64,000 nt of DNA from Streptococcus hyointestinalis. Lineage in GTDB: Bacteria > Bacillota > Bacilli > Lactobacillales > Streptococcaceae. The position numbers were made by a program, and so were the translations under genes. The stretch covers positions 1,054,001 through 1,118,000 of the forward strand of contig NZ_UHFN01000007.1 of NCBI RefSeq assembly GCF_900459405.1, in the 5' to 3' direction. This document shows, piece by piece, positions 12,529 to 28,216 of this stretch; position 1 is the first letter of the stretch; the number at the start of each line of letters is the position of its first letter. The notes beneath the pieces are model-generated. The model searched no databases. It worked only from the letters and a program-made list of their open reading frames with translations, and was not told the DNA's origin.

Positions 12529-12557
12529 TTAGCTAGTTAAATAGATGATAAAGTATT

Positions 12558-13160: not shown

Positions 13161-13324
13161 CAAGCCCATCAAGGTATTTGACGAAAAATATTTTGAGTCT
13201 CGTAATCCAAATATGGAAATTATTTTATTTTGGACTAAAGTTTAGTGTAAAAAGTGTATACAAAAGCAACACCTTATGTTGAAATTTTTTGATAAGGTGT
13301 TACAATGATAGTGCATAAACAATT
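13161..13324 (+). other. Gap with one hairpin
   Basis: No gene seen. AACACCTTAT at about 13269 pairs with ATAAGGTGTT ending at 13304 (10-bp stem). This may be the 3' end of the IS110 element next to it or a terminator for it. Confidence 0.4.
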
Positions 13325-14527
13325 TTACTGATTTTGGGTTAAAGTGTAATCATAAAGTTTGTTATGCGTAATGAGGTAATACATTGTCCGAATGAGACGG
13401 TGTATGGAGGCAATCGTGTGTGGCTTGGTTGAAGTCGTTTGCGATTGCCTTTTTCGTTTCTCATAAAAGTCTGCGATATGGCAAGGGTTGGTATGACTGG
13501 CTGAAGCGATATTGTGAATGCATTTGAACAGAATCTTTCTAGCGTAGGGATTGCCACGCTTGGTAATGTGTTCCTTAGCGAGGAAGTTGCCAGATTCATA
13601 GTGTCTCAGATCAATACCGATAAAGGCATTGATTTGATTGGCAGACTGAAAACGGCGAATATCTCCCAGTTCACCAATAATACTTGTTGCAGTAGTCTCA
13701 GCTATTCCAGGAATAGAAAGTAGAATGTCATACTCTGGTAAAGGCTTAGCTAGAGTAACCATTTTGTCTAAGACAGTTTGTCTCTGTTCAGAAAGTCTAA
13801 GCAATTCTTTTGCATAGTAACGCACCTCTTCCATGATTGGAGAGGTTTTCTTGACGGCACAATAAGATTGATTGGCTAGTGCTGTCAGCTTCTCTGCTAA
13901 GTAAGCCACACGCTTGTCAGAAATCCGTTTTGAAGTGGACAGACGGATGCTCTTTGAGAGTTCATCCTTGCTTAACTCAAGCACCAAGTCCTTGCAAGGA
14001 AACGCAGTAACTAAGTTCCAGTATTGTTCCCCAGTTGGTGTTGACAAGATAGTTTCCAATTCAGGGAAAGTGACCTGTAAGACCTTGTGCAGACGGTTTT
14101 TAGCCCGAACGATGTCCTCGGTTAAGTTCTGATAGAATCGACTGAGATCCCGCAAGTTTTGGTAGACTTCTTCTTGGACATAGGTTGGTTTACGATTCAG
14201 CACAAATTGAGATTGAGCCAGTTTTTCAGCGTCAATCTTATCTGTTTTCCGCACACGCAAGCTGTCCAGTTGCTTCTTAGCTTCTAAGGGATTAAGCCGT
14301 GTATAAGCGTAGCCATGTTCATCCAGAAAAGCTTGAAGACGACGAGAATAGACGCCTGTTGCTTCAAAGATGATTTCTGGCTTGTGGACGGTTTTCAAAT
14401 CACCAAGTAGCCGAGAAAAGCCAATGGCGTCATTGGCCATGGTATAGCCATGAACCTTCTCGCCATTGACTAGAATGGCCACTTCTGAACTTACCTTACT
14501 CACGTCAATTCCCAATACTACTCGCAT
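13325..14527 (-). CDS. IS110-family recombinase, type a
   Basis: 400 aa from the ATG at 14527 (AAAGAGG in front); the longer frame upstream is the element's leader. N-terminal RuvC-like DEDD domain: VLGIDVSKVSSEVAI (Asp), IIFEATGVYSRRL (Glu) and KTDKIDAEKLAQSQ (Asp-x-x-Asp). C-terminal Transposase_20 domain: LLSIPGIAETTATSIIGELG, AFIGIDLR and KRGNPYARKIL with the putative catalytic serine region. IS110 enzymes work with a guide (bridge) RNA. A partial, chimeric copy is at 60880-61600. Confidence 0.9.
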   Translation of the reverse strand: MRVVLGIDVSKVSSEVAILVNGEKVHGYTMANDAIGFSRLLGDLKTVHKPEIIFEATGVYSRRLQAFLDEHGYAYTRLNPLEAKKQLDSLRVRKTDKIDAEKLAQSQFVLNRKPTYVQEEVYQNLRDLSRFYQNLTEDIVRAKNRLHKVLQVTFPELETILSTPTGEQYWNLVTAFPCKDLVLELSKDELSKSIRLSTSKRISDKRVAYLAEKLTALANQSYCAVKKTSPIMEEVRYYAKELLRLSEQRQTVLDKMVTLAKPLPEYDILLSIPGIAETTATSIIGELGDIRRFQSANQINAFIGIDLRHYESGNFLAKEHITKRGNPYARKILFKCIHNIASASHTNPCHIADFYEKRKRQSQTTSTKPHTIASIHRLIRTMYYLITHNKLYDYTLTQNQ

Positions 14528-14813
14528 GATATTACCTCTTTGTCTTGAATGATTCCTTGTTTTAGTGATGTCATTTTCAATACTCGACGTCTGGCGTCCC
14601 ACATACTTTGATAACATTCTTCCTAAAACAGATGTCTTGCCAGTTTTTCTTGCGACGTCTAGCGTCAAAAAGTCCCACGACTTAACAAGACACCTCTACT
14701 TTATCATCTTGAGAATGAAAAAAGTAGTGAGTACTCTCTCCCGTCGGAGATTTCCTCACTACTAATCTTAGTATGTTTTTATGCATTCAAGAAGCCCTAT
14801 AATATTTGCGGTG
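14528..14813 (-). ncRNA. Candidate bridge-RNA leader of IS110 type a
   Basis: Non-coding leader upstream of the recombinase, also kept next to the fragment at 61292-61600. It can fold into GTAGTGAG...CTCACTAC (about 14725-14763) and CTATAATATTTG...CAGATATTATAG (about 14797-14832). IS110-group elements transcribe their bridge RNA from this position. Guides were not assigned because the element's ends are uncertain. Confidence 0.45.
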
Positions 14814-14959
14814 GAGTTACCCACTACAGATATTATAGAGTTAAAGTATTCTTATCTTATTTCTATGGCAGTAAAAAATAATTTGGTAATATTAAGTAGG
14901 ATAACCTTCATATAAAGTGATTGAATAGCAGATATTTATACATGAATGGTAAAGTCAAT

Positions 14960-15027
14960 ACCTTTTAGGGTGTATTTTATGTCATTTAGGGAAAAGCACT
15001 TTAATGTAAACGTTTTTATGATATACT
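14960..15027 (+). promoter_or_regulatory. BlpR-type operator and promoter, cut off from its gene
   Basis: ACCTTTTAGG, 11 bases, GTCATTTAGG (14960-14990), then 31 bases to TATACT (15022-15027). The expected ribosome site TTTAGGAGG (15057-15064) follows, but an IS110 element separates it from the bacteriocin ATG at 16632. Confidence 0.85.
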
Positions 15028-15195
15028 ATAAGTGTCTCGAGATAAAGCAATTTTATTTAGGAGGCATTCTATATAAAAAGTCAAGAATAATTTTTAAAAA
15101 TATTAACTATTTTTAAAAGCTATTTAGAAAATTGATTGCATGTGAAAAAGACCTGCTAAAAGCAAGTTTTTAAAATGATTCATGACTTTATAGTT

Positions 15196-16353
15196 TTACC
15201 TTAGCTTAGTTTCATCAAACAGTTGATTGGTTTTAAGAAGATGATAAATTACACGAATGAGCTTTTTAGCAACATGTGTCACAGCTACATTGTAATGCTT
15301 TCCTTGACTGATTTTTAGTCTTAAATAGGCTTTAAAATGTGGGGAATAAATGGCTATAAGCTTAGCAGCCTGTATTAGAGCGTACCTTAGATAAGAGGAG
15401 CCTCGTTTTACCATATGACCGGTATTATCCATCTGTCCTGATTGGTAAATGGCAGGGTCTAATCCTGCAAAGGCCTGGAGCTGATTTGGATTCTTGAAAT
15501 TATGAATATTCTTAATTTCAGCTAGAATAATAGCACCAAGACGACTTCCAATTCCAGGAATAGAAGTAATAGGAGAGTTCAACTCAATCATCAAGAGGTT
15601 AATTTCCTCTTGGACTTGGTTAATTTGCTTATCGTAGTGTTTAATGCTTTCAATTAATTGAACTAACTCCAAGGATAAAACAGGTGAAGCATTACCAATA
15701 GTCTGTTTGGCTGTTTCTTGTATCTGATGCGCCTTATCAGCGGTTAGTCGCTTAATTTTAAGCAATGATGAGAACCGAGCACGAGCTATTCTTTGTGGAG
15801 AAGGATAGTTTGTTAGTAAGTCATAGATAAACTGATTATAGAGATTATTAACGATTCTGTGGAGTTCAGGGAAGATAATATCAAGTAATCTGATGTATAA
15901 ATTCTTGCATCTAGATCGTGATTGAATTAGGCGATTTTGATAACGTGTCAGCTCTTTTAACTCGTCTAATACCCTATCTGTTTGATAACGTTCAGGGGTT
16001 ACGTCAGAGCGTAGCTTACGAGCAATTAAAAGGGCATCTTTCCTATCAGTTTTAGTTTTTCTAAGCGATTGTGATTTAGCAAATTCTTTGATAATGAGCG
16101 GGTTGTAGGCAAATACATTGTAGCCTAAGTCTCTTAAAAAGGTCACTATATTGTAGTTATAGTGTCCTGTGCTTTCAAGTGCTATCTGGACATCTTGTGT
16201 GATAGGAGATAGCTGTTCTAGCTTTAGTTTCAGCTGATGAAAACCTTGACAAGAATTGGCAAATCTGAAGTTGGTTATCACTGTTTCTCCAGTTTCGTTG
16301 ATACAGGCTAAATCGTGTTTGTTTTTGGCAATATCAATACCAACATAAAACAT
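15196..16353 (-). CDS. IS110-family recombinase, type b, copy A
   Basis: 385 aa from ATG 16353 (AAAGGA in front); a GTG 16 codons upstream is less likely. RuvC-like residues in MFYVGIDIAKNKHD, ALESTGHYNYN and KTDRKDALLIARK. C-terminal domain with SITSIPGIGSRLGAIILAEI, FAGLDPAIYQSGQ and KRGSSYLRYAL. Catalyses RNA-guided recombination in the IS110 family. Nearly identical proteins at 24571 and 41236. Confidence 0.92.
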   Translation of the reverse strand: MFYVGIDIAKNKHDLACINETGETVITNFRFANSCQGFHQLKLKLEQLSPITQDVQIALESTGHYNYNIVTFLRDLGYNVFAYNPLIIKEFAKSQSLRKTKTDRKDALLIARKLRSDVTPERYQTDRVLDELKELTRYQNRLIQSRSRCKNLYIRLLDIIFPELHRIVNNLYNQFIYDLLTNYPSPQRIARARFSSLLKIKRLTADKAHQIQETAKQTIGNASPVLSLELVQLIESIKHYDKQINQVQEEINLLMIELNSPITSIPGIGSRLGAIILAEIKNIHNFKNPNQLQAFAGLDPAIYQSGQMDNTGHMVKRGSSYLRYALIQAAKLIAIYSPHFKAYLRLKISQGKHYNVAVTHVAKKLIRVIYHLLKTNQLFDETKLR

Positions 16354-16399
16354 AAGTTTCTGGTTCCTTTCGAGATTATTAGCGACTGTTGTTCGTTCC

Positions 16400-16612
16400 A
16401 CGCACTCTTTGTCTTGTATCCTTACACGAGATAAAACGTCTGGGCGTTATCATTCTCATTACCAATTAAACAAAGAGCTGTGGTTAGAGCCTCCTAGAAA
16501 TCGTCAAAGCGATTGGTGTAAGATACTAATCCACAGCGCTGAACTAAGTATAAAACAAATCTAAAAAATAATTAAAGAAAGGGTTTATACTAGCGGGAGC
16601 TACCCGCTAATA
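16400..16612 (-). ncRNA. Candidate bridge RNA of IS110 type b, copy A
   Basis: Minus-strand leader with several hairpins, including AATCG-CTTTGA-CGATT (16514-16499) and a GCGGGTAGCTCCCGC hairpin at the element tip. That first hairpin is flanked 5' by TTACACC (16521-16515) and 3' by TAGGAGG after TC (16496-16490). In element orientation the targets read ...ACCTCCTA..., so the 5' segment resembles the left half and the 3' segment is the exact complement of the right half CCTCCTA. Confidence 0.6.
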
Positions 16613-16631
16613 TAAATATAAGGTATTCGTT

Positions 16632-16865
16632 ATGAATGCAACAATGAAACAATTTGAAGTGATGAATGAGCAACAATTAGTTGCTGTTGAAGGTGGAAAA
16701 GTTAATTGGGGAAGAATTGGTATGTGTGCTTTAAGTGTTGCAGCTGGAGCAGGTCAAGCATATATGTCCACAGCAGGAGGGACAGCATTTTTAGGTCCTT
16801 ACGCTATTGGTACTGGAGCTATTGGAGCAATTATTGGGGGTGCAGGAGCCGCTGTAAATTGTTAA
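16632..16865 (+). CDS. Double-glycine class IIb-type bacteriocin (BlpM/N-like), promoter displaced
   Basis: 77 aa. The leader MNATMKQFEVMNEQQLVAVEGG is followed by a mature peptide KVNWGRIGMCALSVAAGAGQ..., rich in Gly/Ala with many GxxxG steps and ending GGAGAAVNC. Such peptides insert into membranes, usually in pairs. Its blp promoter and full ribosome site lie beyond the IS110 insertion; only AAGGT remains ten bases upstream. Expression is probably lost or reduced unless the IS supplies a promoter. Confidence 0.85.
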   Translation: MNATMKQFEVMNEQQLVAVEGGKVNWGRIGMCALSVAAGAGQAYMSTAGGTAFLGPYAIGTGAIGAIIGGAGAAVNC

Positions 16866-16898
16866 TTTCTATTTCTGGTCATACTTGGGAGGTGAATA

Positions 16899-17303
16899 AT
16901 GAAACATCTACATTATTTAAGAAGTATGCGTTTTTTAACAGGACAATTGCCAGTTGTTGGTTTACTTAGTGTACTTCTATCTGGAGATATTTTTAATAGC
17001 CCACTTTCCGTAAAATTATTGTTTGCTTTGCTCACTTTAAGTACGGTATCTAGTAATTTCTACTTTATTAAAGAAATTAAAGAGGAAAAAGCTAAGGATA
17101 ATTATAAGCCTAATATAATGCTAAATCAAATAGGTCTCATCATTATATCAGTAGTTCTTGGAGTGATTTGTATATTTCGTGGCATGAGCAATATACAATC
17201 CTATCAGCAAATAATTGCATTTATTTGTGCAACATTATGTTTTATTATTTGTGCTTTATTAGTGTGGGGTTGTAAGTATATAAACAATATTTCAAGGAAA
17301 TAA
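16899..17303 (+). CDS. Putative bacteriocin immunity membrane protein
   Basis: 134 aa; GGGAGGTGAATA precedes the ATG. Four hydrophobic helices (about residues 15-30, 38-57, 77-97 and 105-125) and a basic end. It follows the bacteriocin at 16632 by 33 bases in the same transcription unit, so immunity to that peptide is the likely role. No family-defining motif. Confidence 0.65.
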   Translation: MKHLHYLRSMRFLTGQLPVVGLLSVLLSGDIFNSPLSVKLLFALLTLSTVSSNFYFIKEIKEEKAKDNYKPNIMLNQIGLIIISVVLGVICIFRGMSNIQSYQQIIAFICATLCFIICALLVWGCKYINNISRK

Positions 17304-17315
17304 TAATGGAAGAAT

Positions 17316-17373
17316 AAAAAAGAACTTCTTGTGAAGGAGTTAAGACTTCCTTTTGCAAGAGAGTTCTTTTTTA
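17316..17373 (+). terminator. Rho-independent terminator
   Basis: AAAAAAGAACT and AGTTCTTTTTT pair, with an inner AAGGAG/CTTCCTT stem, ending in a T run. Confidence 0.75.
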
Positions 17374-17793
17374 TATCATTGTTAACTTATTTAGCGTTAT
17401 TCTATTCATAAGTGAAAAGTAGAGGAGGCTTTGGAAAATGGTAAAGCTACTCCACAACCTGGCTGGGTTAGACAAGCTATACCAAACACTTATGTGTTGG
17501 ATAGGTAATCATGTTCGAATTTTAATGGCTGGGCTTACTCCCTCTGTTACTGTAAATCACAAATAGAGACTACGGGAACACTGAGAGGAGGCCTTTGCAG
17601 GATACGGTATGTATATAATTGGATACCTAGGTGCTTATCTTGATATAAGCAGCCATCGTGTTATATCAACTAAGCAATTTTATAAGGAATGTGACATTAT
17701 TAAAGAAAGCGCATAAAATGTTATAGGCATAAAGAACACAATCTTTTTATTCAGTGTTGTGCCTTGAGTGAAACGAAAGGAATGAATTGTATT
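17374..17793 (+). other. Gene-poor stretch with decayed coding traces
   Basis: No intact gene. About 17415-17508 one frame reads KVEEALENGKATPQPGWVRQ and then AIPNTYVLDR before a stop, and about 17510-17640 another reads SCSNFNGWAYSLCYCKSQ. These look like fragments of a broken small gene. No BlpR operator was seen in front of the peptide pair at 17794. Confidence 0.3.
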
Positions 17794-17994
17794 ATGAAAC
17801 ACGAAGATGTAATTTTGAAATTTGAAACACTTTCTGATTCACAAATGACAGAGATTAATGGTGGAGTTGTGCTAACTACGATTGTTGTAGGAGGTACAAC
17901 AATTGCTGTAACTGGCAAAATGGCTGTTGGAGCGATTGCGACAGCTTATGGGGCAGGTTATGCAATTGGACGTGGATTAGGGTACTTTAAATAA
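17794..17994 (+). CDS. Double-glycine bacteriocin peptide, first of a likely pair
   Basis: 66 aa from ATG 17794 (AAAGG 13 bases upstream; the ATG at 17782 is too close to it). The leader ends DSQMTEINGG. The mature peptide VVLTTIVVGGTTIAVTG...AIGRGLGYFK is hydrophobic with GxxxG motifs and a basic end. The next gene, 34 bases on, encodes a similar peptide, so a two-peptide class IIb bacteriocin is likely. Confidence 0.8.
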   Translation: MKHEDVILKFETLSDSQMTEINGGVVLTTIVVGGTTIAVTGKMAVGAIATAYGAGYAIGRGLGYFK

Positions 17995-18028
17995 TTAAGA
18001 GAATTAATGAAAATAAAAAGGAGAAAAG

Positions 18029-18241
18029 ATGATTAAACTTGAAACATTAAAAAATGATAATTTTACAGTACTTTCAGAACAAAGTTTAGTGGAAGTTAAT
18101 GGAGGGCTTGCAATCACTATTTTAGGAGTTACATATGTGGGGGCAAAAGCAGCTGCAATTTTAGCTGGAGGAGGAGCTATCTTAGGTGGAGCTGCTGGAT
18201 GGGGAGCTTGGGTTGGATACAACGAATCTAAACGTCAATAG
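18029..18241 (+). CDS. Double-glycine bacteriocin peptide, second of a likely pair
   Basis: 70 aa; AAAAGGAG precedes the ATG. The leader ends EQSLVEVNGG. The mature peptide LAITILGVTYVGAKAAAILAG... contains AGGGAILGG and GAAGWGAWVG helices and ends YNESKRQ. It forms a probable transmembrane helix pair with the product at 17794. Confidence 0.82.
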   Translation: MIKLETLKNDNFTVLSEQSLVEVNGGLAITILGVTYVGAKAAAILAGGGAILGGAAGWGAWVGYNESKRQ

Positions 18242-18276
18242 TATTTACAGCATTATGTAATTAAGGAGTAGAGGTT

Positions 18277-18441
18277 ATGGTTAGTGAAATGAATGGGAAT
18301 AAAGCCGTAATGAACTTTATAAGGTGGATTATTTATCTATCTATGTTTGCAGTTTGTAGTATGGATTTGATTATGGAACATAGATTAAATTTTATGTATA
18401 TTTTATGGAATGTCGCTTTATTGTATTTTATTAGTGACTAA
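18277..18441 (+). CDS. Small membrane protein, immunity candidate
   Basis: 54 aa, MVSEMNGNKAVMNFIRW..., preceded by AAGGAGTAGAGG. Two hydrophobic segments (IIYLSMFAVCSMDLIM and FMYILWNVALLYFI). It follows the two-peptide pair by 35 bases; role in immunity is inferred from position only. Confidence 0.6.
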   Translation: MVSEMNGNKAVMNFIRWIIYLSMFAVCSMDLIMEHRLNFMYILWNVALLYFISD

Positions 18442-18597
18442 GAAGTTAACTATAAAGTATTTTAAGAGAGACGATGTGTAATCATTGTTACTGATGGACT
18501 GATTGTGCTTGACCCAGAATTTGGTGGTGATTTAGGGTTCTATTTTGGACTTAAATAACAAGCTTCTTGACTGAATATAACCTGATTTCTATGGGAA
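18442..18597 (+). pseudogene. Short coding fragment
   Basis: From about 18488 a frame reads VTDGLIVLDPEFGGDLGF then YFGLK and a stop at 18558, without a start or ribosome site. It looks like the 3' end of a lost gene cut off by ISL3 activity. Confidence 0.25.
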
Positions 18598-18672
18598 CAT
18601 TGTCAACTATAGTGGGTTGATGAAAAGCTATGTATGAGAGAGGACGAAATTCGTTCTCTCTTTGTGTGTTCA
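18598..18672 (+). mobile_element. ISL3-type terminal remnant
   Basis: ATTGTCAACTATAGTGGG, TTGATGAAAAGC and the following GAGAGAGGACGAAATTCG/TTCTCTC hairpin match the element end at 12558-12640 with some changes. Only this solo end remains. Confidence 0.65.
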
Positions 18673-18774
18673 AGTAGGAATGATTCTATCGTTAAGTCGT
18701 CTCATTTCTCCAAAGCATTCTATATTTAATAGGTTGAGAGGTGTAAAGTAAAGCTATATCTAAAAACTATTTTA

Positions 18775-18810
18775 AGAAGAGCGAAGCTAGTCTGCTTTGC
18801 TCTTTTTAGT
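18775..18810 (+). terminator. Rho-independent terminator
   Basis: AAGAGCGAAGC and GCTTTGCTCTT pair with one mismatch, followed by T5. Confidence 0.75.
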
Positions 18811-18868
18811 ATGTATGATAGTTATATATTAGACTTGTTCGGTAACTCAAAAGTGGTATACTAAAGGT

Positions 18869-19294
18869 ATGGAAACAACATACGAAAAAGCCTTAAAATT
18901 AAACTCAGAGAATTTCAAATTGTTGATAGGTGTTAAAAAAGCGACGTTTCATCTGATGCTTGATTGTCTCACTGACGCTTATCAAGAGCAACACCGAAAA
19001 GGAGGACGCCCACGTCGTCTAAGCATGGAAGACCAACTTATCATGACCTTGCGCTACTTACGTTATTACCCCACTCAACGCTTGTTGGCATTTGATTTTG
19101 GTGTAGGTGTGGCAACTGTCAATGAGACCATTACATGGGTAGAGGACACCCTTCGTTCTTCGGGCCTCTTTGATTTAGACCACTTGGAAGCACCTAGCGC
19201 CACTGTTGCCATTGATGTCACTGAAAGTCCTATTCAACGCCCTAAAAAAACCAAAGCAAGAATTATTCTGGTAAAAAGAAAAGACATACCATAA
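18869..19294 (+). CDS. ISL2-group transposase, N-terminal part
   Basis: 141 aa with the DUF4096-type N-terminus (KGGRPRRLSMEDQLIMTLRY) and the first catalytic Asp in VAIDVTESPIQRPKK. The conserved KNYSGKKKRHTIKTQ block continues in the -1 frame after a run of seven A at about 19244-19250, so a -1 frameshift would produce the full transposase. Confidence 0.85.
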   Translation: METTYEKALKLNSENFKLLIGVKKATFHLMLDCLTDAYQEQHRKGGRPRRLSMEDQLIMTLRYLRYYPTQRLLAFDFGVGVATVNETITWVEDTLRSSGLFDLDHLEAPSATVAIDVTESPIQRPKKTKARIILVKRKDIP

Positions 19295-19305
19295 AAACTC
19301 AAATC

Positions 19306-19683
19306 ATGCTTGATTTGACTAGCCATCGTGCTTGTCAATTGGCTTTTTCAGATGGCCATACGCATGATTTTACCCTTTTTAAGGAGAGTATTGGCTATAG
19401 TTTGCCCCAAAGTACCCTTGTTTTCGTAGATTTAGGGTATTTAGGCATCTTGAAATTTCACGAAAATACCTTTATTCCTGCTAAGCGTTCTAAACATCAC
19501 CTCTTAACCCAAGAGGATAAGCAGTTGAATCGCGAGATAGCTAAAATGCGTATTGAAGTTGAGCGCTATAATGCCAAATTTAAAACCTTTCAAATCATGG
19601 CACAGCCCTATCGTAATCGTAGAAAACGGTTTGAATTAAGAGCTGAGTTGATTTGTGGCATCATCAACCACGAGATGATGTAG
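19306..19683 (+). CDS. ISL2-group transposase, C-terminal part
   Basis: 125 aa from ATG 19306, though the frame is open back to the poly-A site. Contains SDGHTHDFTLFKES, FVDLGYLGI (second Asp) and an ELICGIINHE end with RIEVERYNAKFKTF (Glu region). Read as the second half of the frameshifted transposase. Confidence 0.83.
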   Translation: MLDLTSHRACQLAFSDGHTHDFTLFKESIGYSLPQSTLVFVDLGYLGILKFHENTFIPAKRSKHHLLTQEDKQLNREIAKMRIEVERYNAKFKTFQIMAQPYRNRRKRFELRAELICGIINHEMM

Positions 19684-19730
19684 TTACCGAACAAGTCTAT
19701 TTAAAATTAACAAATATTGTTCAAAATGAT

Positions 19731-19798
19731 ACCTTTTAGGGCGGAAAAGTGACCATTTAGGACATAAGGCTAAATTGTGTTACTTTTTGTGGTATAGT
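19731..19798 (+). promoter_or_regulatory. BlpR operator and promoter of the LPXTG-blpSRH unit
   Basis: ACCTTTTAGG, 11 bases, ACCATTTAGG (19731-19761), then 31 bases to TATAGT (19793-19798). Identical operator to that of blpAB, so blpSRH can be autoinduced by readthrough. Confidence 0.85.
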
Positions 19799-19880
19799 AA
19801 AGGTATGAAATGTTGATTGACTTTTGCTGAGGTCAACATGGGAAGATTACAGAGTTTTTTTGGATTAGGAGGGAAGCAGT

Positions 19881-19892
19881 ATGTCAATATGA
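19881..19892 (+). other. Three-codon minicistron behind a strong ribosome site
   Basis: TAGGAGGGAAGC leads to ATG TCA ATA TGA. The real gene begins 58 bases later with a weak site. This may be a leader minicistron or a mutated original start. Confidence 0.4.
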
Positions 19893-19950
19893 AATAAAAA
19901 ATAAAACAGCAAATAAGTTGAAATTATTAGAAAATAATAAGAGAATAATT

Positions 19951-20946
19951 ATGGAAAACAAACAATTAAAATTCGTGACATTGTTATCAAGTGTTTTGCT
20001 TATGGCTAACTTTTCTAACGTCTTGGCAGATGATACTGCTTCTACGGGACAAGAAGCTACAGTTGTAGCGGAGAGTACAGCCAGTCAAGAAACTCCGACT
20101 ACTGAAGTGACATCAGACAATACAGAACTTACAGATAGTTCTACAGAAGCACCTGCAGTTTCTTCCGAAGAAGCACCAAATACCAGCAAGGAAACGTCTG
20201 TTAATGAGGAATCTGAGGAGGTATCTGATGTAGCAACTGAAACTCCAGCTCCAGAAATTACACAAGAGCAATATCAAGAAAATGTAGCGGATTTAACTAA
20301 AGTTTCTATCAATGAAGTATATCAAATGTTTACTTCTGATGAGAACAAGCACCTTCTCTATGTTGGACGTCCAACTTGTTATTACTGTCGCCAATTTTCA
20401 CCAGAGCTGAAAAAATTGAATGAATTAAAACCAGTTGAGTACTACAATACAGATGGAGATGACTTTGATGAGAATGCAAAGAATTTCCTTTTTGGTACTG
20501 TTGGTATCCCTGGAACTCCAACTCTGATTCGTCTTGAGAATGGAGAAGTTATCTCTGCTTGGGTTGGTGGAGGAGACGCCAATGATATCTACCACTATAT
20601 GTTTAAAAACATAGAAAGCAGTAGTATTGAGCAAACTTCATCAGAAGATGAAGATACTATAGAAAATAATGATCAAGAAAATCAATCACTATCAAACGAA
20701 CAGGGGAAAGATGAAGTCGTTAATAAAGAGACAAACACTCCATACACTACTTTATCAGTGACACCTACAACATCAAATAAAGAGGCAACTGGTAAGGTAA
20801 GCGACACTGTAGTGGCTCAGGCAACTAACACTACTCTTCCTAAAACAGGAGAAAAGAAAGATTCTTTGATAATTTTGGGAACATTGGTATCGCTTTTTGC
20901 CTATGGATTTTTTAGAAAAACAGATAAAAAGCGTGACAACTACTAA
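19951..20946 (+). CDS. LPXTG-anchored thioredoxin-like protein (BlpG-type thiol oxidoreductase)
   Basis: 331 aa from ATG 19951. The signal peptide [20 protein letters not shown]...NVLA is followed by a Thr/Ser/Glu-rich spacer, a thioredoxin-like domain with the CxxC motif [10 protein letters not shown] and cis-proline region [11 protein letters not shown], a second acidic spacer, then LPKTGEKKD, a membrane helix and a basic tail. Sortase should fix it to the wall. In S. thermophilus a blp-locus thiol-disulfide oxidase (BlpG) supports bacteriocin activity. Here three candidate peptides carry two cysteines each, fitting a disulfide-forming role outside the cell. Confidence 0.85.
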
Positions 20947-20975
20947 ATAAATAGTGTTTTTTAAAGGGAGGTAAA

Positions 20976-21290
20976 ATGCAGTATTTATCACTTAAGGCAC
21001 ATTCAAAAGTGTATCAATTTGTTCTTGAAGATATTTATTATATCAAAACAACTAGTCAACATAAGGTTGAAGTCGTAACTCTCGGTTATTCTTATGCTTT
21101 TTCAGCTAACCTAACAGAAATAGAAGCAGAGATGCCCCAGCTATTTCGTTGTCATCGCAATTGTTTAGTGAATCCTAATCAAATAAGAATTGTAGATAAG
21201 AAAGCAAGACTTATCCACTTTAGGCGTTCCGAAATTCCGCCAATTGTCTGTGCTAGAGCTAAACTAAAAGCATTGTTAACATTGCTATAA
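20976..21290 (+). CDS. blpS: Stand-alone LytTR DNA-binding protein (BlpS-like)
   Basis: 104 aa; AAAGGGAGG precedes the ATG. The whole protein is one LytTR domain (EDIYYIKTTSQHKVEVVT, FRCHRNCLVNPNQI) without a receiver domain, and resembles the C-terminal half of BlpR next door. Pneumococcal blp loci carry the same arrangement, BlpS before BlpR. It may compete with or modulate BlpR at the tandem operators. Confidence 0.82.
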   Translation: MQYLSLKAHSKVYQFVLEDIYYIKTTSQHKVEVVTLGYSYAFSANLTEIEAEMPQLFRCHRNCLVNPNQIRIVDKKARLIHFRRSEIPPIVCARAKLKALLTLL

Positions 21291-21301
21291 AAGGAGATTT
21301 T

Positions 21302-22060
21302 ATGTATCCAATTTACATTTTAGAAGATGATGTCATTCAACAAAACCGTCTTAAGGAAGCGATTGACCGCTATGCTGTCAGCAAGCAGTGGGGAGATTAT
21401 CAGTGTAAGGTGTTTGACGATGGACAAGAGCTTTTGACAGCTTTTGAAAAGAGTGGTGAAAAAGCGCTTTTCTTCCTAGATTTAGAGATTAAAGGTGTTA
21501 AGCGACTGGGACTAGAGGTTGCTAAGGTTATCTATAAGACCTCGCCTTTCTCTCTTATCGTTTTTGTCTCAACCCACTCAGAGTACATGCCCCACACCTA
21601 TAAGTCTATGGTTCGGGCAATGGACTTTATCATCAAAGATGAGTCTGAAGAGGAGTATAACGACCGTGTCGCTAGTTGCCTAGACTATGTTTCAGAGTTG
21701 GATAAGCAAGACGTTGAGAAAGAAACCTTTCTGTTTAGAAATAGTGAAGGGTCAGATATCTTTTTGAAGTTTGACGAGATTTTCTTTGTCGAGACCGATC
21801 CACAGCACTCTCATAAGCTTATTCTCTACTCACTTTACTCCCGTATCGAGTTTCGTGCGACCTTGTCAGAGGTGTTAAAAAGCGAGCCACGCTTCTTTAA
21901 ATGTCATCGGTCCTTTCTCATTAATCCTAAAAACGTCACTCTAATCAACAGACGTGAAAAAATGCTTTACTTTAGGGATGGATTAAGTTGCCCAATCTCA
22001 CGTCGTCATATCAACCCTCTTATCAAACGAATAGAAGGAGGAGAATTACGTGTCATTTAA
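21302..22060 (+). CDS. blpR: Response regulator BlpR
   Basis: 252 aa; AAAGGAG precedes the ATG. N-terminal receiver with acidic pair LEDD and phospho-acceptor Asp60 (ALFFLDLEIKG); C-terminal LytTR domain (DEIFFVETDPQHSHKLILY, FFKCHRSFLINPKN). AlgR/AgrA/LytR-type regulators bind tandem repeats about 21 bp apart, which is what the seven blp promoters here show. Phosphorylated by BlpH; the genes overlap by 11 bases. Confidence 0.93.
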   Translation: MYPIYILEDDVIQQNRLKEAIDRYAVSKQWGDYQCKVFDDGQELLTAFEKSGEKALFFLDLEIKGVKRLGLEVAKVIYKTSPFSLIVFVSTHSEYMPHTYKSMVRAMDFIIKDESEEEYNDRVASCLDYVSELDKQDVEKETFLFRNSEGSDIFLKFDEIFFVETDPQHSHKLILYSLYSRIEFRATLSEVLKSEPRFFKCHRSFLINPKNVTLINRREKMLYFRDGLSCPISRRHINPLIKRIEGGELRVI

Positions 22061-23363
22061 CTATTTGATGCAGACCCTATTTATTTTTCCTTTTATATTG
22101 TTAGTCTATCATCAAGTTAGCGCTATCACACTTAAATGGTATGAATATCTTATTATAATAAGTGTCTTTGTGTTTACAGATTTGTCTTGGTTTTATTTCA
22201 TCTTTCTAGAGTTTGCAGTCCTAATAGCTTTTTCTTATCTTAAAGACAAAACAAAACCTATAGCGTTACATTTTTTCTACGGTCTCTATCCTTGGGTTAT
22301 TGATAGCCTTCTTAGACGGTTTGTTCTTTTTTATGTTCTTCCTATATTTGGCATAACAGATTTTCGATTATTTTTAGAAAATATATCTGTCCTTGCTTTA
22401 ACAGAACTATTTATTTACATTATTTATTTCATTGCAACTTACCGATTACGTTTTGATTTCAATGTTTTAATTGAGTTAGTTAGCACACAGACTTTGCGTA
22501 TAAGACTATTAGCTATTGACATTGGGATGCTCGTTTATTTTATTGCTATGGAGTTCTTTTCTGGAGCTGAATATTACGGTCATGTAGATACGCTTCTCAT
22601 TCGTCAGCTACTAACGATTGTTTACGTCATTGTCTTTATCGGATCCCTTATTTATCTTAATTCTGCCTATAAAAAACACCTTGAGGAGGAGCTGGTCAAG
22701 GTGCGTTTGTCTGAGTTGAATACTTTGGTGACTTATACTAAGCAAATAGAAGAGCTTTATGCGGATATTAGAGCCTTTAGACACGACTATGCTAATATTA
22801 TATCAACTCTAAGCGAAGGAATTGCTCACAATGATATGGACATTATCAAAAAGGTTTATGCAAACGTGATAAAAGAGTCTGGAGATATCTTGGAATCTTC
22901 TAAGTATGACTTTGAAGGGTTGGCTTACATAAAAGATGATGCCTTAAAAAGTCTAATAGCAACGAAGGTGTTCGATGCTAAGAAACGAGGTATAGATGTT
23001 CAGCTGGACATTCCAGATACAATAGATAAGCCTGACAACATGGCTTTACTCGATGTTATCAGGCTCATCTCTATCTTGATAGATAATGCTATTGAGGCAG
23101 CTCTCAAAGCGGAGCATCCTCAGGTGATGATCAATATCCATGAGGACGATAATGACTACATTATTACTGTTAGCAATAGTACCAAAGAAGAGAAAACCCC
23201 GATAGCCTATCTTAGCGGCAATGGCTATACCAGTAAAAAAACTGGTGAGCATGGTATTGGTCTTGTGACTATCAAACGTTTCCAAGACCAATATCCTCAG
23301 TTAAGTGTTGAAGCGACTAGTGGTCAGTATAGAGTAATGCAGAAAGTAGTGCTAAAAGGTTAG
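22050..23363 (+). CDS. blpH: Pheromone-sensing histidine kinase BlpH
   Basis: 437 aa from a GTG preceded by AAGGAGGAG inside the blpR end. Six or seven membrane helices fill about residues 1-215; a coiled linker leads to the phospho-acceptor His near residue 244 (FRHDYANIIS) and an HPK10-type ATPase (LIDNAIEAAL; GEHGIGLVTIK). It should detect the secreted BlpC peptide encoded on the opposite strand just after it. Confidence 0.93.
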   Translation: MSFNYLMQTLFIFPFILLVYHQVSAITLKWYEYLIIISVFVFTDLSWFYFIFLEFAVLIAFSYLKDKTKPIALHFFYGLYPWVIDSLLRRFVLFYVLPIFGITDFRLFLENISVLALTELFIYIIYFIATYRLRFDFNVLIELVSTQTLRIRLLAIDIGMLVYFIAMEFFSGAEYYGHVDTLLIRQLLTIVYVIVFIGSLIYLNSAYKKHLEEELVKVRLSELNTLVTYTKQIEELYADIRAFRHDYANIISTLSEGIAHNDMDIIKKVYANVIKESGDILESSKYDFEGLAYIKDDALKSLIATKVFDAKKRGIDVQLDIPDTIDKPDNMALLDVIRLISILIDNAIEAALKAEHPQVMINIHEDDNDYIITVSNSTKEEKTPIAYLSGNGYTSKKTGEHGIGLVTIKRFQDQYPQLSVEATSGQYRVMQKVVLKG

Positions 23364-23372
23364 ATGATGTAA

Positions 23373-23522
23373 TTACCCTATTTTTCCCTTGAGTCTATTC
23401 CCAAACCAATCTGACCACTTAGTAGTTAGGTAAGTTTGTCCACCACTGATTTGTTGTAATTCGCCTTGAGATAAGCTCTCAAGTTCCTTATGAGTATTAA
23501 GTGTTTCAATTGATTTTAACAT
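23373..23522 (-). CDS. blpC: BlpC-type pheromone precursor
   Basis: 49 aa, minus strand; TAGGAGG lies upstream of the ATG. The leader MLKSIETLNTHKELE... ends ELQQISGG. The predicted mature 21-residue pheromone starts QTYLTTKWSD, continues WFGNRL and ends KGKIG, so it is basic and amphipathic. It is convergent with blpH, with nine bases between the stops. No tandem BlpR operator is seen upstream; a TATACT box (minus, 23549-23544) suggests basal expression. Confidence 0.85.
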   Translation of the reverse strand: MLKSIETLNTHKELESLSQGELQQISGGQTYLTTKWSDWFGNRLKGKIG

Positions 23523-23637
23523 AAAATGTACCTCCTATATATTAGTATAGCACATTATAGGTAAATAATAGCGGTGTTGCACGATTTTGTTATGCCAATA
23601 TAGCATAGTGTTCTTTGATAGTTTAAGGAGAGATAAT

Positions 23638-23877
23638 ATGTATGTAAGAATTAGAGATTTAAGACAGAAAAGAAACTATTCGCAAGGAAAAATAGCACAC
23701 TATTTATCTTGCAGTCAGTCTTCTTATTCAAGAATTGAAAGTGGTGCAAGAGAGCTCCCAGTAGATATTTTAATTAAGTTAGCTGAGCTTTATAATGTGA
23801 ATGTAGATTATATCCTTGGGTTAACAGAATTTCCTTACAGTTTAAAAAATAAGTCTGAAACGGAGAATTTGGAATAG
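23638..23877 (+). CDS. XRE-family regulator
   Basis: 79 aa from ATG 23638 (AAGGAGAG upstream). Nearly all of it is one Cro/C1 helix-turn-helix domain (RQKRNYSQGKIAHYLSCSQS, ELPVDILIKLAELYNVNVDYI). Similar to the product at 24163, so the two are paralogues. Targets unknown. Confidence 0.85.
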   Translation: MYVRIRDLRQKRNYSQGKIAHYLSCSQSSYSRIESGARELPVDILIKLAELYNVNVDYILGLTEFPYSLKNKSETENLE

Positions 23878-23936
23878 CTCTCTAAATGAGAGTTGAAGCT
23901 TGAGCGAAGCTCGAAGATAAATTAAGAGAGCTATCC
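23874..23936 (+). terminator. Hairpin terminator
   Basis: ATAGCTCTCT pairs with AGAGAGCTAT across a loop containing a GAGCTTCG-type sub-hairpin (GCTTGAGCGAAGC). Confidence 0.6.
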
Positions 23937-23983
23937 AATCTTTTGATGATGTAGTTAGTGTTATCCTATAAAAAATTAGTCAG

Positions 23984-24025
23984 ATGAAAAGTCGTGGTTT
24001 CTATAGAAATCATGGCTTTTAGTTT
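23984..24025 (+). terminator. Rho-independent terminator-like hairpin
   Basis: AAAAGTCGTGGTTTCTA and TAGAAATCATGGCTTTT pair with G-T pairs, followed by a T-rich tail. Confidence 0.6.
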
Positions 24026-24090
24026 ACTTTTTTCATTAGTAAATTAGTAGTTTTTAGAATGGTGACTTAATCAACTCGTTTTAAAAATAT

Positions 24091-24111
24091 TTTATGCATA
24101 TTCTGCATAAA
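24091..24111 (+). promoter_or_regulatory. Inverted repeat, possible operator
   Basis: TTTATGCA and TGCATAAA flank TATTC, 52 bases before the XRE gene at 24163. Likely an autoregulatory site. Confidence 0.45.
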
Positions 24112-24162
24112 ATGACGATTTTGACTTTCTTCGTTTTACAATATCAGTAAAGAGGATTGTTA

Positions 24163-24363
24163 ATGTACATCAGGTTAAAAAACTTAAGAGAGGACAGAGA
24201 CTTAACACAAGAACAAATCGCAAAATATCTTCATTGTTCGCAATCTGCGTATTCTAGAATAGAAAGTGGGAAACAAGATATTCCAACATCGTTTTTGAAA
24301 AAATTAGCAAAATTGTATGGCGTAACAACGGACTATATATTGGAAATGGATAAAGAACAATAG
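24163..24363 (+). CDS. XRE-family regulator
   Basis: 66 aa from ATG 24163 (AGAGGA upstream), a single Cro/C1 domain (LREDRDLTQEQIAKYLHCSQS, LAKLYGVTTDYILEM). Paralogue of 23638. Followed by a GTCACACTTT/AAAGTGTGAC hairpin (about 24409-24432) and the IS110 insertion site. Confidence 0.85.
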   Translation: MYIRLKNLREDRDLTQEQIAKYLHCSQSAYSRIESGKQDIPTSFLKKLAKLYGVTTDYILEMDKEQ

Positions 24364-24570
24364 TTGATATTCTCGAAATTTCTAGGGTAATATGAAAATG
24401 AATAGGAGTGTCACACTTTAAAAAGTGTGACATAGGAGGCATTCTATATAAAAAGTCAAGAATAATTTTTAAAAATATTAACTATTTTTAAAAGCTATTT
24501 AGAAAATTGATTGCATGTGAAAAAGACCTGCTAAAAGCAAGTTTTTAAAATGATTCATGACTTTATAGTT

Positions 24571-25728
24571 TTACCTTAGCTTAGCTTCATCAAACAGTTG
24601 ATTGGTTTTAAGAAGATGATAAATTACACGAATGAGCTTTTTAGCAACATGTGTCACAGCTACATTGTAATGCTTTCCTTGACTGATTTTTAGTCTTAAA
24701 TAGGCTTTAAAATGTGGGGAATAAATGGCTATAAGCTTAGCAGCCTGTATTAGAGCGTACCTTAGATAAGAGGAGCCTCGTTTTACCATATGACCGGTAT
24801 TATCCATCTGTCCTGATTGGTAAATGGCAGGGTCTAATCCTGCAAAGGCCTGGAGCTGATTTGGATTCTTGAAATTATGAATATTCTTAATTTCAGCTAG
24901 AATAATAGCACCAAGACGACTTCCAATTCCAGGAATAGAAGTAATAGGAGAGTTCAACTCAATCATCAAGAGGTTAATTTCCTCTTGGACTTGGTTAATT
25001 TGCTTATCGTAGTGTTTAATGCTTTCAATTAATTGAACTAACTCCAAGGATAAAACAGGTGAAGCATTACCAATAGTCTGTTTGGCTGTTTCTTGTATCT
25101 GATGCGCCTTATCAGCGGTTAGTCGCTTAATTTTAAGCAATGATGAGAACCGAGCACGAGCTATTCTTTGTGGAGAAGGATAGTTTGTTAGTAAGTCATA
25201 GATAAACTGATTATAGAGATTATTAACGATTCTGTGGAGTTCAGGGAAGATAATATCAAGTAATCTGATGTATAAATTCTTGCATCTAGATCGTGATTGA
25301 ATTAGGCGATTTTGATAACGTGTCAGCTCTTTTAACTCGTCTAATACCCTATCTGTTTGATAACGTTCAGGGGTTACGTCAGAGCGTAGCTTACGAGCAA
25401 TTAAAAGGGCATCTTTCCTATCAGTTTTAGTTTTTCTAAGCGATTGTGATTTAGCAAATTCTTTGATAATGAGCGGGTTGTAGGCAAATACATTGTAGCC
25501 TAAGTCTCTTAAAAAGGTCACTATATTGTAGTTATAGTGTCCTGTGCTTTCAAGTGCTATCTGGACATCTTGTGTGATAGGAGATAGCTGTTCTAGCTTT
25601 AGTTTCAGCTGATGAAAACCTTGACAAGAATTGGCAAATCTGAAGTTGGTTATCACTGTTTCTCCAGTTTCGTTGATACAGGCTAAATCGTGTTTGTTTT
25701 TGGCAATATCAATACCAACATAAAACAT
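24571..25728 (-). CDS. IS110-family recombinase, type b, copy B
   Basis: 385 aa from ATG 25728. Identical to copy A except Ala for Thr near the C-terminus (LFDEAKLR). All catalytic motifs intact. Confidence 0.92.
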   Translation of the reverse strand: MFYVGIDIAKNKHDLACINETGETVITNFRFANSCQGFHQLKLKLEQLSPITQDVQIALESTGHYNYNIVTFLRDLGYNVFAYNPLIIKEFAKSQSLRKTKTDRKDALLIARKLRSDVTPERYQTDRVLDELKELTRYQNRLIQSRSRCKNLYIRLLDIIFPELHRIVNNLYNQFIYDLLTNYPSPQRIARARFSSLLKIKRLTADKAHQIQETAKQTIGNASPVLSLELVQLIESIKHYDKQINQVQEEINLLMIELNSPITSIPGIGSRLGAIILAEIKNIHNFKNPNQLQAFAGLDPAIYQSGQMDNTGHMVKRGSSYLRYALIQAAKLIAIYSPHFKAYLRLKISQGKHYNVAVTHVAKKLIRVIYHLLKTNQLFDEAKLR

Positions 25729-25774
25729 AAGTTTCTGGTTCCTTTCGAGATTATTAGCGACTGTTGTTCGTTCC

Positions 25775-25987
25775 ACGCACTCTTTGTCTTGTATCCTTAC
25801 ACGAGATAAAACGTCTGGGCGTTATCATTCTCATTACCAATTAAACAAAGAGCTGTGGTTAGAGCCTCCTAGAAATCGTCAAAGCGATTGGTGTAAGATA
25901 CTAATCCACAGCGCTGAACTAAGTATAAAACAAATCTAAAAAATAATTAAAGAAAGGGTTTATACTAGCGGGAGCTACCCGCTAATA
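25775..25987 (-). ncRNA. Candidate bridge RNA of IS110 type b, copy B
   Basis: Same leader as copy A, with TTACACC at 25896-25890 and TAGGAGG at 25871-25865 (minus strand). The target here, element orientation, is AAACACCTCCTATG, which matches ACACC and complements TAGGAGG fully. Confidence 0.6.
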
Positions 25988-26006
25988 TAAATATAAGGTG
26001 TTTCCT

Positions 26007-26135
26007 ATGAAAGAAGACTTGATACAATACAATTTACAATTATCTATGTTGAGATTCCTTTATTCAAAGAATATGCTGACAAAAAAGGAATTTGAAAAAA
26101 TAAAAATGAAATTGCGCATTAGGTACACAAAATAG
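26007..26135 (+). CDS. SHOCT-like small protein paired with serine recombinase
   Basis: 42 aa, MKEDLIQYNLQLSMLRFLYS and then KNMLTKKEFEKIKMKL. The (I/L)-LTKKEFEKIK end is the SHOCT-type motif seen in tiny genes that precede large serine recombinases of integrative elements. The IS110 in its ribosome site leaves AAGGTG eight bases upstream, so some translation may remain. Confidence 0.7.
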   Translation: MKEDLIQYNLQLSMLRFLYSKNMLTKKEFEKIKMKLRIRYTK

Positions 26136-26193
26136 CGGACTTTTTTGATTGAACGCGGTAACATATGATTCATCAAGAAAAGGAGTTGCTGAT

Positions 26194-27999
26194 ATGAAAG
26201 ATAATAATGTAGAAATTATTAAAGCAGATTCCATAGTTCGAAGACGTGGAATGGGTGTAGAAAAGCAATATAAAAAAGTTGCTGCTTATTGCCGTGTAAG
26301 TACAGATAACGAAGACCAGAAAAATAGCTATGATTCCCAAGTGAGACACTATAGAGACTATATTTCGCAACGACCAGATTGGCAATTAGTTGATATTTAC
26401 GCTGATGAGGGTATTTCGGGAACGCAAGCCGATAAAAGACAAGATTTTCAACGATTGATTAATGATTGTAAAAATGGAGAGATTGATTATATTGTTACTA
26501 AAGCCATTGCACGATTTGCAAGGAATACTTTAGATACTTTGAAATATGTTAGAATGCTAAAGGACATGCAGGTTGGTGTGTATTTTGAAGAAGAAAATAT
26601 TGATACATTAACTATGGATGGGGAGCTACTTTTAACAATCTTAAGTTCAGTTGCACAGCAGGAAGTAGAGAACACATCAGCCCATGTCAAAAAAGGATTG
26701 AAAATGAAAATGCAGCGAGGAGAATTAGTTGGCTTTCAAGGTTGTCTTGGATATGACTATGATGTTGAAACAAAGTCATTGTCTATTAATGAAGGAGAAG
26801 CAAAGATCGTTCGATATATTTTTAAGAGATATTTAGAAGGAATAGGAGGAAAGGTAATTGCTAGAGAATTAGAAGAACTAGGTTATAAATCACCAAGGGG
26901 CTTGGACCATTGGAATGATACAACTGTATTAGGTATTATAAAGAATGAGAAATACAAAGGTGATGTTTTAATGGGAAAAACTTTTACTGTTGATCCTATA
27001 AGTAAGCGTCGGTTGAGTAATTTGGGAGAAGAAGATAAATACTATATCAAAGATGACCATGCACCGATTATCTCTCCAGAAGATTTTGACAAAGCGCAAG
27101 AAATTCGACTAAGGCGTGCTGGCAATAAAAAGACTGTTGCTAATGTCAATGGTAAGAGAGAGCGCTATTCTAAAATGTATGCTTTCAGTAGTATGCTTGA
27201 ATGTGGTTTCTGTGGATCGGTCCTTTCACGAAGGAGCTGGCATTCTCGTTCAGATTATAGAAAAGTTGTGTGGCACTGTGTTACTTCTATCAAAAAAGGG
27301 AAAAAGTATTGCAAACACAGCAAGGGTTTAGAAGAGTTTGCTATTGAAGGTGCCTTCATGGAAGCATACAGACAGCTTTATTATTCAAATGAATCGGCAA
27401 TACCTAATCTTTTAGAAGTTATTGAAGAAGAATTGAGCGATAACAGTCTAAATAAAGAATTAAAGAAGATAACTAAAAAACTTCGTAACTTATTGAAAAA
27501 AGAAGAAAATCTTGTTAATCTAAAGTTGAATAATCAGATTAGTGAGACTCTTTATAATGAGAAGTACAATGAAATCTTATCTGAAAGGGAAATGTTATCT
27601 GAAGAAAAAATAAATGTTGAGACGACTTTAAAATCAGATGTAACTGTAAAAAATAGGTTAGTAGAATTTCAAAAATTATTGACTTCAAACAAACTACTGA
27701 CTGAGTTTGATCGAACATTTTTTGAAAGTGTTGTTGAAAAAATTATTGTCGGAGGGATAAATAGCGAAGGTGAAATTGACCCAGCAATGCTGACTATTAT
27801 ATTTAAAACAGGAGATAAGCAATACAAGAACGGAAAACAATTCAAAAGAAGACGTAAAAACGCTAAACAAAAATTGGATAAATTGTGTTCTCAGAACCGT
27901 GATGAGTACGAAAAAATGTGTCTACAAGAAACAGTCGACACACGTGGAGTGTGTTGCTCTGCTGGTAAAAGCCTAGAAATCTTTGAACGAAAGGGATAA
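26194..27999 (+). CDS. Large serine recombinase
   Basis: 601 aa from ATG 26194 (AAAAGGAG upstream). Catalytic resolvase domain with AAYCRVSTDNEDQKNSYDSQ (Ser36), Recombinase domain (about 175-290; GFQGCLGYDYD, GLDHWNDTTVLGIIKNEKYKG), zinc ribbon (MLECGFCGSVLSRR...HCVTSIKKGKKYC) and a coiled coil (about 410-490). It would integrate or excise a mobile element; the attachment sites are not identified. It may have delivered the island that follows. Confidence 0.9.
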   Translation: MKDNNVEIIKADSIVRRRGMGVEKQYKKVAAYCRVSTDNEDQKNSYDSQVRHYRDYISQRPDWQLVDIYADEGISGTQADKRQDFQRLINDCKNGEIDYIVTKAIARFARNTLDTLKYVRMLKDMQVGVYFEEENIDTLTMDGELLLTILSSVAQQEVENTSAHVKKGLKMKMQRGELVGFQGCLGYDYDVETKSLSINEGEAKIVRYIFKRYLEGIGGKVIARELEELGYKSPRGLDHWNDTTVLGIIKNEKYKGDVLMGKTFTVDPISKRRLSNLGEEDKYYIKDDHAPIISPEDFDKAQEIRLRRAGNKKTVANVNGKRERYSKMYAFSSMLECGFCGSVLSRRSWHSRSDYRKVVWHCVTSIKKGKKYCKHSKGLEEFAIEGAFMEAYRQLYYSNESAIPNLLEVIEEELSDNSLNKELKKITKKLRNLLKKEENLVNLKLNNQISETLYNEKYNEILSEREMLSEEKINVETTLKSDVTVKNRLVEFQKLLTSNKLLTEFDRTFFESVVEKIIVGGINSEGEIDPAMLTIIFKTGDKQYKNGKQFKRRRKNAKQKLDKLCSQNRDEYEKMCLQETVDTRGVCCSAGKSLEIFERKG

Positions 28000-28164
28000 T
28001 GAAAACCCTTAATTGCAAGGCTTTTTCTTATGTGGTGGGGAAGTATCAGAGTGGGAAATTTTTAGAAGGAGTAGAAGTGATAGCTAGAAATTATCAAAAT
28101 CTATTTCCATTTACCCATTTTTCAAAATCGCCTAAATGGTTGCTTCTGTAAATAGTGATAACAA
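28000..28164 (+). other. Gap without genes
   Basis: AT-rich, no convincing reading frame. GTGGTGGGGAAGTATCAGAG at 28033 could be part of a recombination site, but no partner copy was found. Confidence 0.4.
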
Positions 28165-28194
28165 TTGAATACAAACTGTTAAAGGTGTTATAAT
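28165..28194 (+). promoter_or_regulatory. Promoter of the WYL regulator
   Basis: TTGAAT (28165-28170), 18 bases, TATAAT (28189-28194). The -10 covers the ATG at 28193, which argues for the downstream start at 28217. Confidence 0.65.
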
Positions 28195-28216
28195 GTTTTT
28201 AAGAATTGAGGTAAAT

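Follow-up and report, generated by a model that had tools for sequence, protein, structure and literature searches.

The element and its insertion sites

The 64,000-nucleotide stretch of the Streptococcus hyointestinalis genome analyzed here (the window; contig NZ_UHFN01000007.1, positions 1,054,001 to 1,118,000) carries two copies of an IS110-family insertion sequence. Each copy splits the Shine-Dalgarno (SD) sequence of a short open reading frame (ORF), and the leader of each contains a predicted bridge RNA with guides that would specify such sequences. The features of the two copies and their targets are:

15064..16622, minus strand: IS110-family element copy 1, 1,559 bp including one CT core; the core reads AG on the plus strand, at 15062-15063 and 16621-16622
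24439..25997, minus strand: element copy 2, 1,559 bp; cores at 24437-24438 and 25996-25997
15196..16401, minus strand: recombinase ORF of copy 1, 401 amino acids from GTG as listed
24571..25776, minus strand: recombinase ORF of copy 2
15057..15064, plus strand: target 1, the portion of the interrupted SD that lies upstream (TTAGGAGG); AGGT remains on the gene side at 16621-16624, with ATG at 16632
24432..24439, plus strand: target 2, the portion of the interrupted SD that lies upstream (ATAGGAGG); the following ORF starts with ATG at 26007
16632..16865, plus strand: small ORF of 77 amino acids directly behind target 1, bacteriocin-like to judge by a reading of its sequence alone
26007..26135, plus strand: ORF of 42 amino acids following target 2 and shortly preceding a recombinase gene (26149-27999)

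Direct reading of both copies confirmed an IS110-type element at the two places given in the original prediction, although the length proposed there, 1557 bp, excludes the CT core. Excision of 15064-16620 leaves AG doubled; because each end carries the core, a single core has to leave with the element, which therefore measures 1,559 bp. These boundaries were set by seven intact copies with differing flanks, at which the two junctions have in common only CT plus one matching neighbor (CCT), consistent with scarless insertion at a common dinucleotide core, as in other IS110 elements. The two window copies differ by a single base across element positions 1-1555, and both run antisense to the ORF behind them. 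Read in element orientation, site 1 when empty is GAATAC[CT]CCTAAATA and site 2 is AAACAC[CT]CCTATGTC; on the sense strand both rebuild TAGGAGGT, 7 nt and ATG, as had been claimed.

Searching the host genome at the DNA level (2.55 Mb in 7 contigs) recovered seven copies over the full query, one without its right end, one split in two and one lone right end, the flanks of which resolve to nine insertion events. In eight of these, comprising the seven intact copies and a split one, the empty site reads (A/T)GGAGGT with an ATG 2-7 nt on; one of the eight genes behind the rebuilt SDs (locus L005; loci are cited hereafter by L number) is interrupted by a stop. The SD placement of the window copies is not chance, since the same arrangement of SD and ATG is restored at five other intact copies and at a split one. 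This genome also contains two less closely related elements, of 74% (2 copies) and about 70% (9 copies) DNA identity, which likewise occupy SD-like sites, the latter cutting 3 nt further 5'.

Some copies have been rearranged. Those at L009/L012 and L008/L130 are in two pieces, the breaks falling at element positions 153-154 and 1512-1513 and the pieces overlapping by 2 bp, as would result from insertion of another element; by eye, the L012 flank resembles an IS630-type transposase gene. At L010, the outer left end appears twice in tandem (~1453-1500).

Recombinase

The recombinase has the DEDD RuvC-like N-terminal domain and C-terminal Tnp domain that define the IS110 family, scoring 143.2 bits for PF01548 and 85.7 bits for PF02371, both above cut-off, and 245.9 bits (cut-off 140) for the NCBIfam model of IS110 RNA-guided transposases, NF033542. 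Among solved structures it matches ISCro4 and IS621. The motifs GID, E(A/S)TG, KTD..DA and Y.SG align, and the catalytic D, E, D, D and S are identical to those of IS621, which passages of PMC11208158 give as D11, E60, D102, D105 and S241 (the placing of residues within motifs is ours). In copy 1, an internal ATG at ~16353 suits the start of related proteins better than the listed GTG. A scan of viral contigs with the recombinase returned no relative.

Predicted leader RNA and element ends

All features of the leader and ends lie on the minus strand, as does the recombinase gene:

16410..16620, minus strand: leader with predicted bridge RNA, copy 1, comprising a 5' stem-loop, target-binding loop and donor-binding loop (fold, alignment of 35 leaders, covariation)
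16584..16616, minus strand: 14-bp hairpin in the outer left end, the 5' stem-loop of the leader
16515..16521, minus strand: left target guide (LTG) TTACACC, copy 1 (sequence; covariation)
16490..16496, minus strand: right target guide (RTG) TAGGAGG, copy 1 (sequence; covariation)
25890..25896, minus strand: LTG, copy 2 (sequence)
25865..25871, minus strand: RTG, copy 2 (sequence)
16451..16456, minus strand: left donor guide (LDG) AGAATG, identical in letters to the right end of the element itself
16420..16424, minus strand: right donor guide (RDG) TAAGG, complement of the left end of the element, CCTTA (a short-word test, and weak)
15079..15084, minus strand: -35 box TTGACT in the right end, which would pair with the left-end -10 box as a promoter in the circle
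16615..16620, minus strand: -10 box TATATT in the left end

The hairpin AATCG/CGATT, flanked by the LTG and the RTG, is present on the minus strand as first described, and the predicted fold places both guides in one internal loop. That the LTG matches the left target half was also proposed; this holds for all five bases at site 2 (ACACC) but for four of five at site 1 (ATACC). A 229-nt leader folds at -63.6 kcal/mol against a mean of -46.8 for shuffled sequences (z -3.9), and the consensus of 35 aligned leaders comprises two stem systems, one enclosing the LTG, hairpin and RTG, the other the LDG and RDG; the small hairpin between LTG and RTG lies outside this consensus, being misaligned among groups. 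The stems contain 25 pairs, with 96.2% of cells paired. Two-sided changes occur in 13 of these pairs, against 2-3 when partners are slid by 1-3 columns, and 13 is not attained in any of 500 column shuffles; further pair types, counted alone, show no excess in this alignment (98 of 500 column shuffles). The predicted fold and its covariation thus point to the target-binding and donor-binding internal loops that characterize IS110 leaders. An Rfam search of 12000-29000 found no family at its gathering score.

When the right end is joined to the left end, TTG-type and TA...T boxes stand 17 nt apart at 84 of 93 sites (17 being the first spacing tried), the commonest combination being TTGACT with TATATT (48).

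Covariation of guides with target and donor DNA

The association between guides and DNA was assessed among relatives drawn from genomes at three taxonomic levels (genus, 284; order, 395; phylum, 398), as well as from genome contigs and plasmids; a fetched subset was analyzed. The LTG test covered distinct sites at which both the LTG and the left end could be read (75 sites in 37 guide classes), the distinct guide class being the unit of shuffling. Loci L008 and L137, in which the pattern found no left end, L128, which meets a contig end, and identical flanks were dropped, as were, among others, L009, L012, L034, L042, L043, L060, L061, L076, L080, L100 and L114, which have no readable LTG. The 8-nt LTG matched its own target at 5.88 positions, compared to 4.08 (sd 0.16) after shuffling, a value that none of 20,000 shuffles equaled; in subgroups of 40, 24 and 11 sites, the corresponding counts were 0, 0 and 2 of 20,000. 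Positions 4-8 from the core alone gave 3.05 of 5 matched vs 1.80 (0 of 20,000 shuffles), and the RTG, at 45 sites in 26 classes, matched 4.22 of 6 target positions vs 2.25 (0 of 20,000).

On the donor side, 85 of the 93 distinct sites have the right-end 6-mer again in the leader of the same element, and versions from other elements occur there in 28 of 930 comparisons; an earlier LDG count of 105/114 included copies fetched repeatedly. The eight sites that fail include the two Streptococcus varani copies, in which part of the leader is deleted. The right donor test was positive at 132 of 134 loci and, relying on four-letter words, carries little weight. As is typical of the IS110 family, the guides match both the target and donor halves. 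Covariation at the LTG (75 sites), at the RTG (45 sites) and in the leader stems, together with identity of the donor guide at 85 of 93 sites, bears out the proposal that an IS110 recombinase is accompanied by a bridge-type leader with an SD sequence encoded in its target loop.

The two S. varani loci (L060, L061) occupy different SD sites and carry the same leader deletion, which removes the RTG and LDG; at least one of these copies may therefore have moved by means of guide RNA supplied in trans.

Shine-Dalgarno targeting among relatives

An ATG lies 2-16 nt after the core at 80 of 109 distinct left-end sites, compared to 22.3% of random positions, and a start codon followed by an ORF at 53 of 75 sites, compared to 15.4%. 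Pairing with the anti-SD was predicted against CACCUCCUUUCU, which we take to be the 16S rRNA tail. At 76 of the 93 sites with both flanks, this pairing is at or below the 5th percentile of random positions, and such strong sites are found at every level of identity (17/21 at 60% or above, 21/23 at 45-60%, 6/9 at 40-45% and 32/40 under 40%).

The guides themselves, with RTG and LTG joined as a written target (31 distinct pairs, relatives of at least 43% identity only), pair with the same presumed 16S tail at a mean of -12.1 kcal/mol, compared to -5.7 for shuffled letters, with p<=0.05 in 25 of 31 pairs; those of L142, for example, write AGTGAAAGGAGGTGATA. In seven pairs (L062, L081, L093, L066, L134, L096 and L043), the written target includes an ATG shortly after the SD, as if these guides also read the start codon. 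That the differing guides of Bacillota relatives fit differing versions of the SD suggests that SD targeting is a trait of a broad IS110 subclade, with exceptions. In S. gallolyticus BI02 (L062-L088), many contigs end inside the element, which suggests that more copies exist than the assembly resolves.

We consider it very probable that the window element belongs to the bridge-RNA elements of the IS110 family and that its guides encode an SD target, an interpretation that is well supported at the level of sequence. Several observations nonetheless weigh against it. LTGs at 22 loci were read by eye, and the remainder by pattern. At the base just before the core, agreement between RTG and target is no better than in shuffles, of which 11,833 of 20,000 do as well. 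Within the host genome, the ninth event, which the 2-bp overlap of L008 with the lone right end in L130 suggests to be a single insertion, rebuilds ACCTCTTA with no ATG nearby; together with the intact copy L007, which lies at ACCTCCAA, it runs counter to the original expectation that all copies sit at ACCTCCTA, although at L007 an SD nonetheless precedes an ATG. In the 9-copy relative, three sites (L016, L017, L021) of the nine are SD-like with no ATG close behind, and 17 of 93 sites pair with the anti-SD more weakly than the random 5th percentile. L147 and L148 are plainly aimed elsewhere, with a guide, CTTGTGTT, and non-SD targets that agree with it; these loci represent a natural redirection within the family. 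Lastly, the SD label is unclustered in a protein tree of 30 sequences plus outgroup (those with internal stops or under 360 amino acids excluded, near-copies merged): 20 of 30 fall at or below -8.5, with 8 changes vs 8.6 when shuffled. SD-type and weaker targets are mixed in this tree, which thus does not point to a single origin.

Predicted consequences of insertion and alternative explanations

The original prediction described a transposon that silences translation, which would be achieved through loss of pairing between the anti-SD and the gene side of the insertion. Predicted pairing on that side (random mean -3.1 kcal/mol) falls from -10.7 to -4.5 kcal/mol among relatives of at least 60% identity (21 sites in mixed registers), where -8.9 remains at the upstream junction and no site is still strong. 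The corresponding change is -13.2 to -9.5 at 45-60% identity (23 sites, 11 still at or below the random 5th percentile), -8.7 to -6.0 at 40-45% (9 sites, none) and -10.8 to -9.1 below 40% (40 sites, 22). Support for the proposal is only partial: it fits best in the window lineage, in which pairing is strongly weakened, and less well in the two largest other groups, which retain strong pairing at 33 of 63 sites. Insertion would also part the gene from whatever lies upstream. Silencing or switching of host translation, by breakage of the SD on insertion and its restoration on scarless excision, might be what the element is selected for, in keeping with an overall fall from 76 to 33 of 93 sites at or below the random 5th percentile. 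We think this unlikely given the smaller falls in the two largest groups outside the window lineage, and because the choice of target by a parasite requires no benefit from silencing.

A different account of the same placement is that the element recognizes a plain purine-rich DNA motif, the SD position being a by-product, with insertions inside genes lost by selection. Purine-rich motifs often lie within SDs: in the host genome, 48 of 79 occurrences of TAGGAGGT (control 6) and 126 of 330 of AGGAGGT (reversed-pattern control 29; a few places are listed twice) have an ATG 2-9 nt downstream, although 15 of the 48, by hand count, are the identical string TAGGAGGTACTTATG, at least some within a dispersed repeat. 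Given the exact motif, eight of eight events before ATG would be expected by chance with a probability of ~0.02, and at least eight of nine with ~0.08, so that the guide motif accounts for most of the SD placement; location of SDs through sensing of translation was rejected on the same grounds. Set against a plain motif, the guides of relatives differ, yet in 25 of 31 pairs they write a better SD than shuffled letters do, which an arbitrary choice of motif would not produce, and at least 7 of the 31 written targets also hold an ATG just after the SD. We judge the case for a plain motif to be evenly balanced, and regard it as refining an SD-encoding guide rather than replacing it. Recognition of the target by the recombinase itself, with the match to the guide a coincidence or a product of common ancestry, draws on the likeness by descent of guides in close relatives. 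This is scarcely credible when both target sides exceed shuffles by guide class and the donor side tracks too, and when, in the host genome, the LTG variant TTCCACC has three SD sites, of which two (L006 and L012) have targets that end in CCACC and the third (L007) one that ends in CTACC. Nor does it seem at all probable that the leader RNA also acts in trans on translation by pairing with the SDs of mRNAs. LTGs such as TATCACCTCC, found in L040 and L142, do resemble what we take to be the 16S rRNA end, but the same letters are required for DNA targeting.

Relation to known systems

The window element represents a known class of mechanism, with a class of target, SD sequences encoded by the guides, that is apparently undescribed. 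With IS621 and other bridge-RNA IS110 elements, as portrayed in passages of PMC11208160 and PMC11208158, it has in common a DEDD and Tnp recombinase, a predicted two-loop leader RNA, a CT core and the logic of LTG, RTG, LDG and RDG. The promoter-like boxes of the joined ends match the IS110 junction promoter published in PMC11208160, and would be assembled in a putative circle. The two differ in that the guides here write SD sequences, whereas the target of IS621 is given in a part of PMC11208160 as repetitive extragenic palindromic (REP) elements, and their recombinases are distant (phmmer 93.9 bits). Targeting of REP palindromes is not indicated in the host genome, where eight of the nine targets of the element are SDs before ATG; palindromes at the targets were not searched for separately. 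ISEc21 and the seekRNA elements of the IS110 and IS1111 groups, in the portions of PMC11187229 that treat them, resemble the window element in a choice of target that here too would be RNA-guided, an upstream non-coding region (IS110 type) and natural redirection between relatives; the target of ISEc21 is given there as a codon region of IS3 transposases. The window element carries its guides in a leader that precedes the gene, an arrangement of the IS110 type, in contrast to the downstream non-coding region of the IS1111 group.

The words "Shine" and "RBS" are absent from the main text of PMC11208160, and the main text of PMC11187229 contains neither "Shine" nor "Streptococc", using "ribosome binding site" solely for a cargo gene. 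An IS110 element aimed at SDs is likewise undescribed in those passages of PMC8944449, PMC3196728, PMC8450116 and PMC3832669 that contain both terms, and in the titles and abstract openings of the literature searched, outside which lay bioRxiv and most subscription journals.

The window holds a second member of the same family:

13325-14668: another IS110 element (18 long matches in the host genome, L184-L201)

Nine of the 18 matches run into flanks that recur, free of the element, as a dispersed repeat, and eight left flanks inspected by eye do not look like SDs. An IS110 element in this genome need not sit at SDs. The string TAGGAGGTACTTATG occurs at coordinates that overlap this dispersed repeat.

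Proposed mechanism and significance

Transposition of the window element may be envisaged as follows. Joining of the ends in an excised circle would create the TTGACT-17-TATATT promoter, from which the leader RNA would be transcribed. The donor loop of this RNA would pair with the element's own ends and the target loop with both halves of an SD around the common CT core, the LTG on the left and the RTG on the right, whereupon the recombinase, presumably catalytically active, would insert the circle at the core. Asymmetry of the target would dictate that the element comes to lie antisense to the downstream gene, with its left end beside the start codon. The address in this scheme would be a DNA sequence, which would leave sensing of translation unneeded.

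More broadly, and quite tentatively, a wide clade of RNA-guided transposons may have settled on the SD as a near-universal address, with guides that drift among versions of the SD and in some cases read the start codon. Many would cut at the 5' edge of the SD and leave most of it with the gene. If so, then an SD, which is kept by the ribosome, stands before many genes and lies outside coding sequence, would offer landing sites in any new host that uses SDs; and as the window lineage cuts 3 nt further in, its insertion and scarless excision could constitute a reversible switch of translation.

Bridge-RNA elements are known for targeting specific repeats such as REPs, and an SD target would by comparison be hard for hosts to lose and common across species. 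Guides that encode the SD would thus account for the spread of these elements without a species-specific repeat, and would place them directly before genes, where expression may be altered. The 37 LTG classes identified here also form a natural series of guide-target pairs, through which the retargeting of bridge RNAs can be studied.

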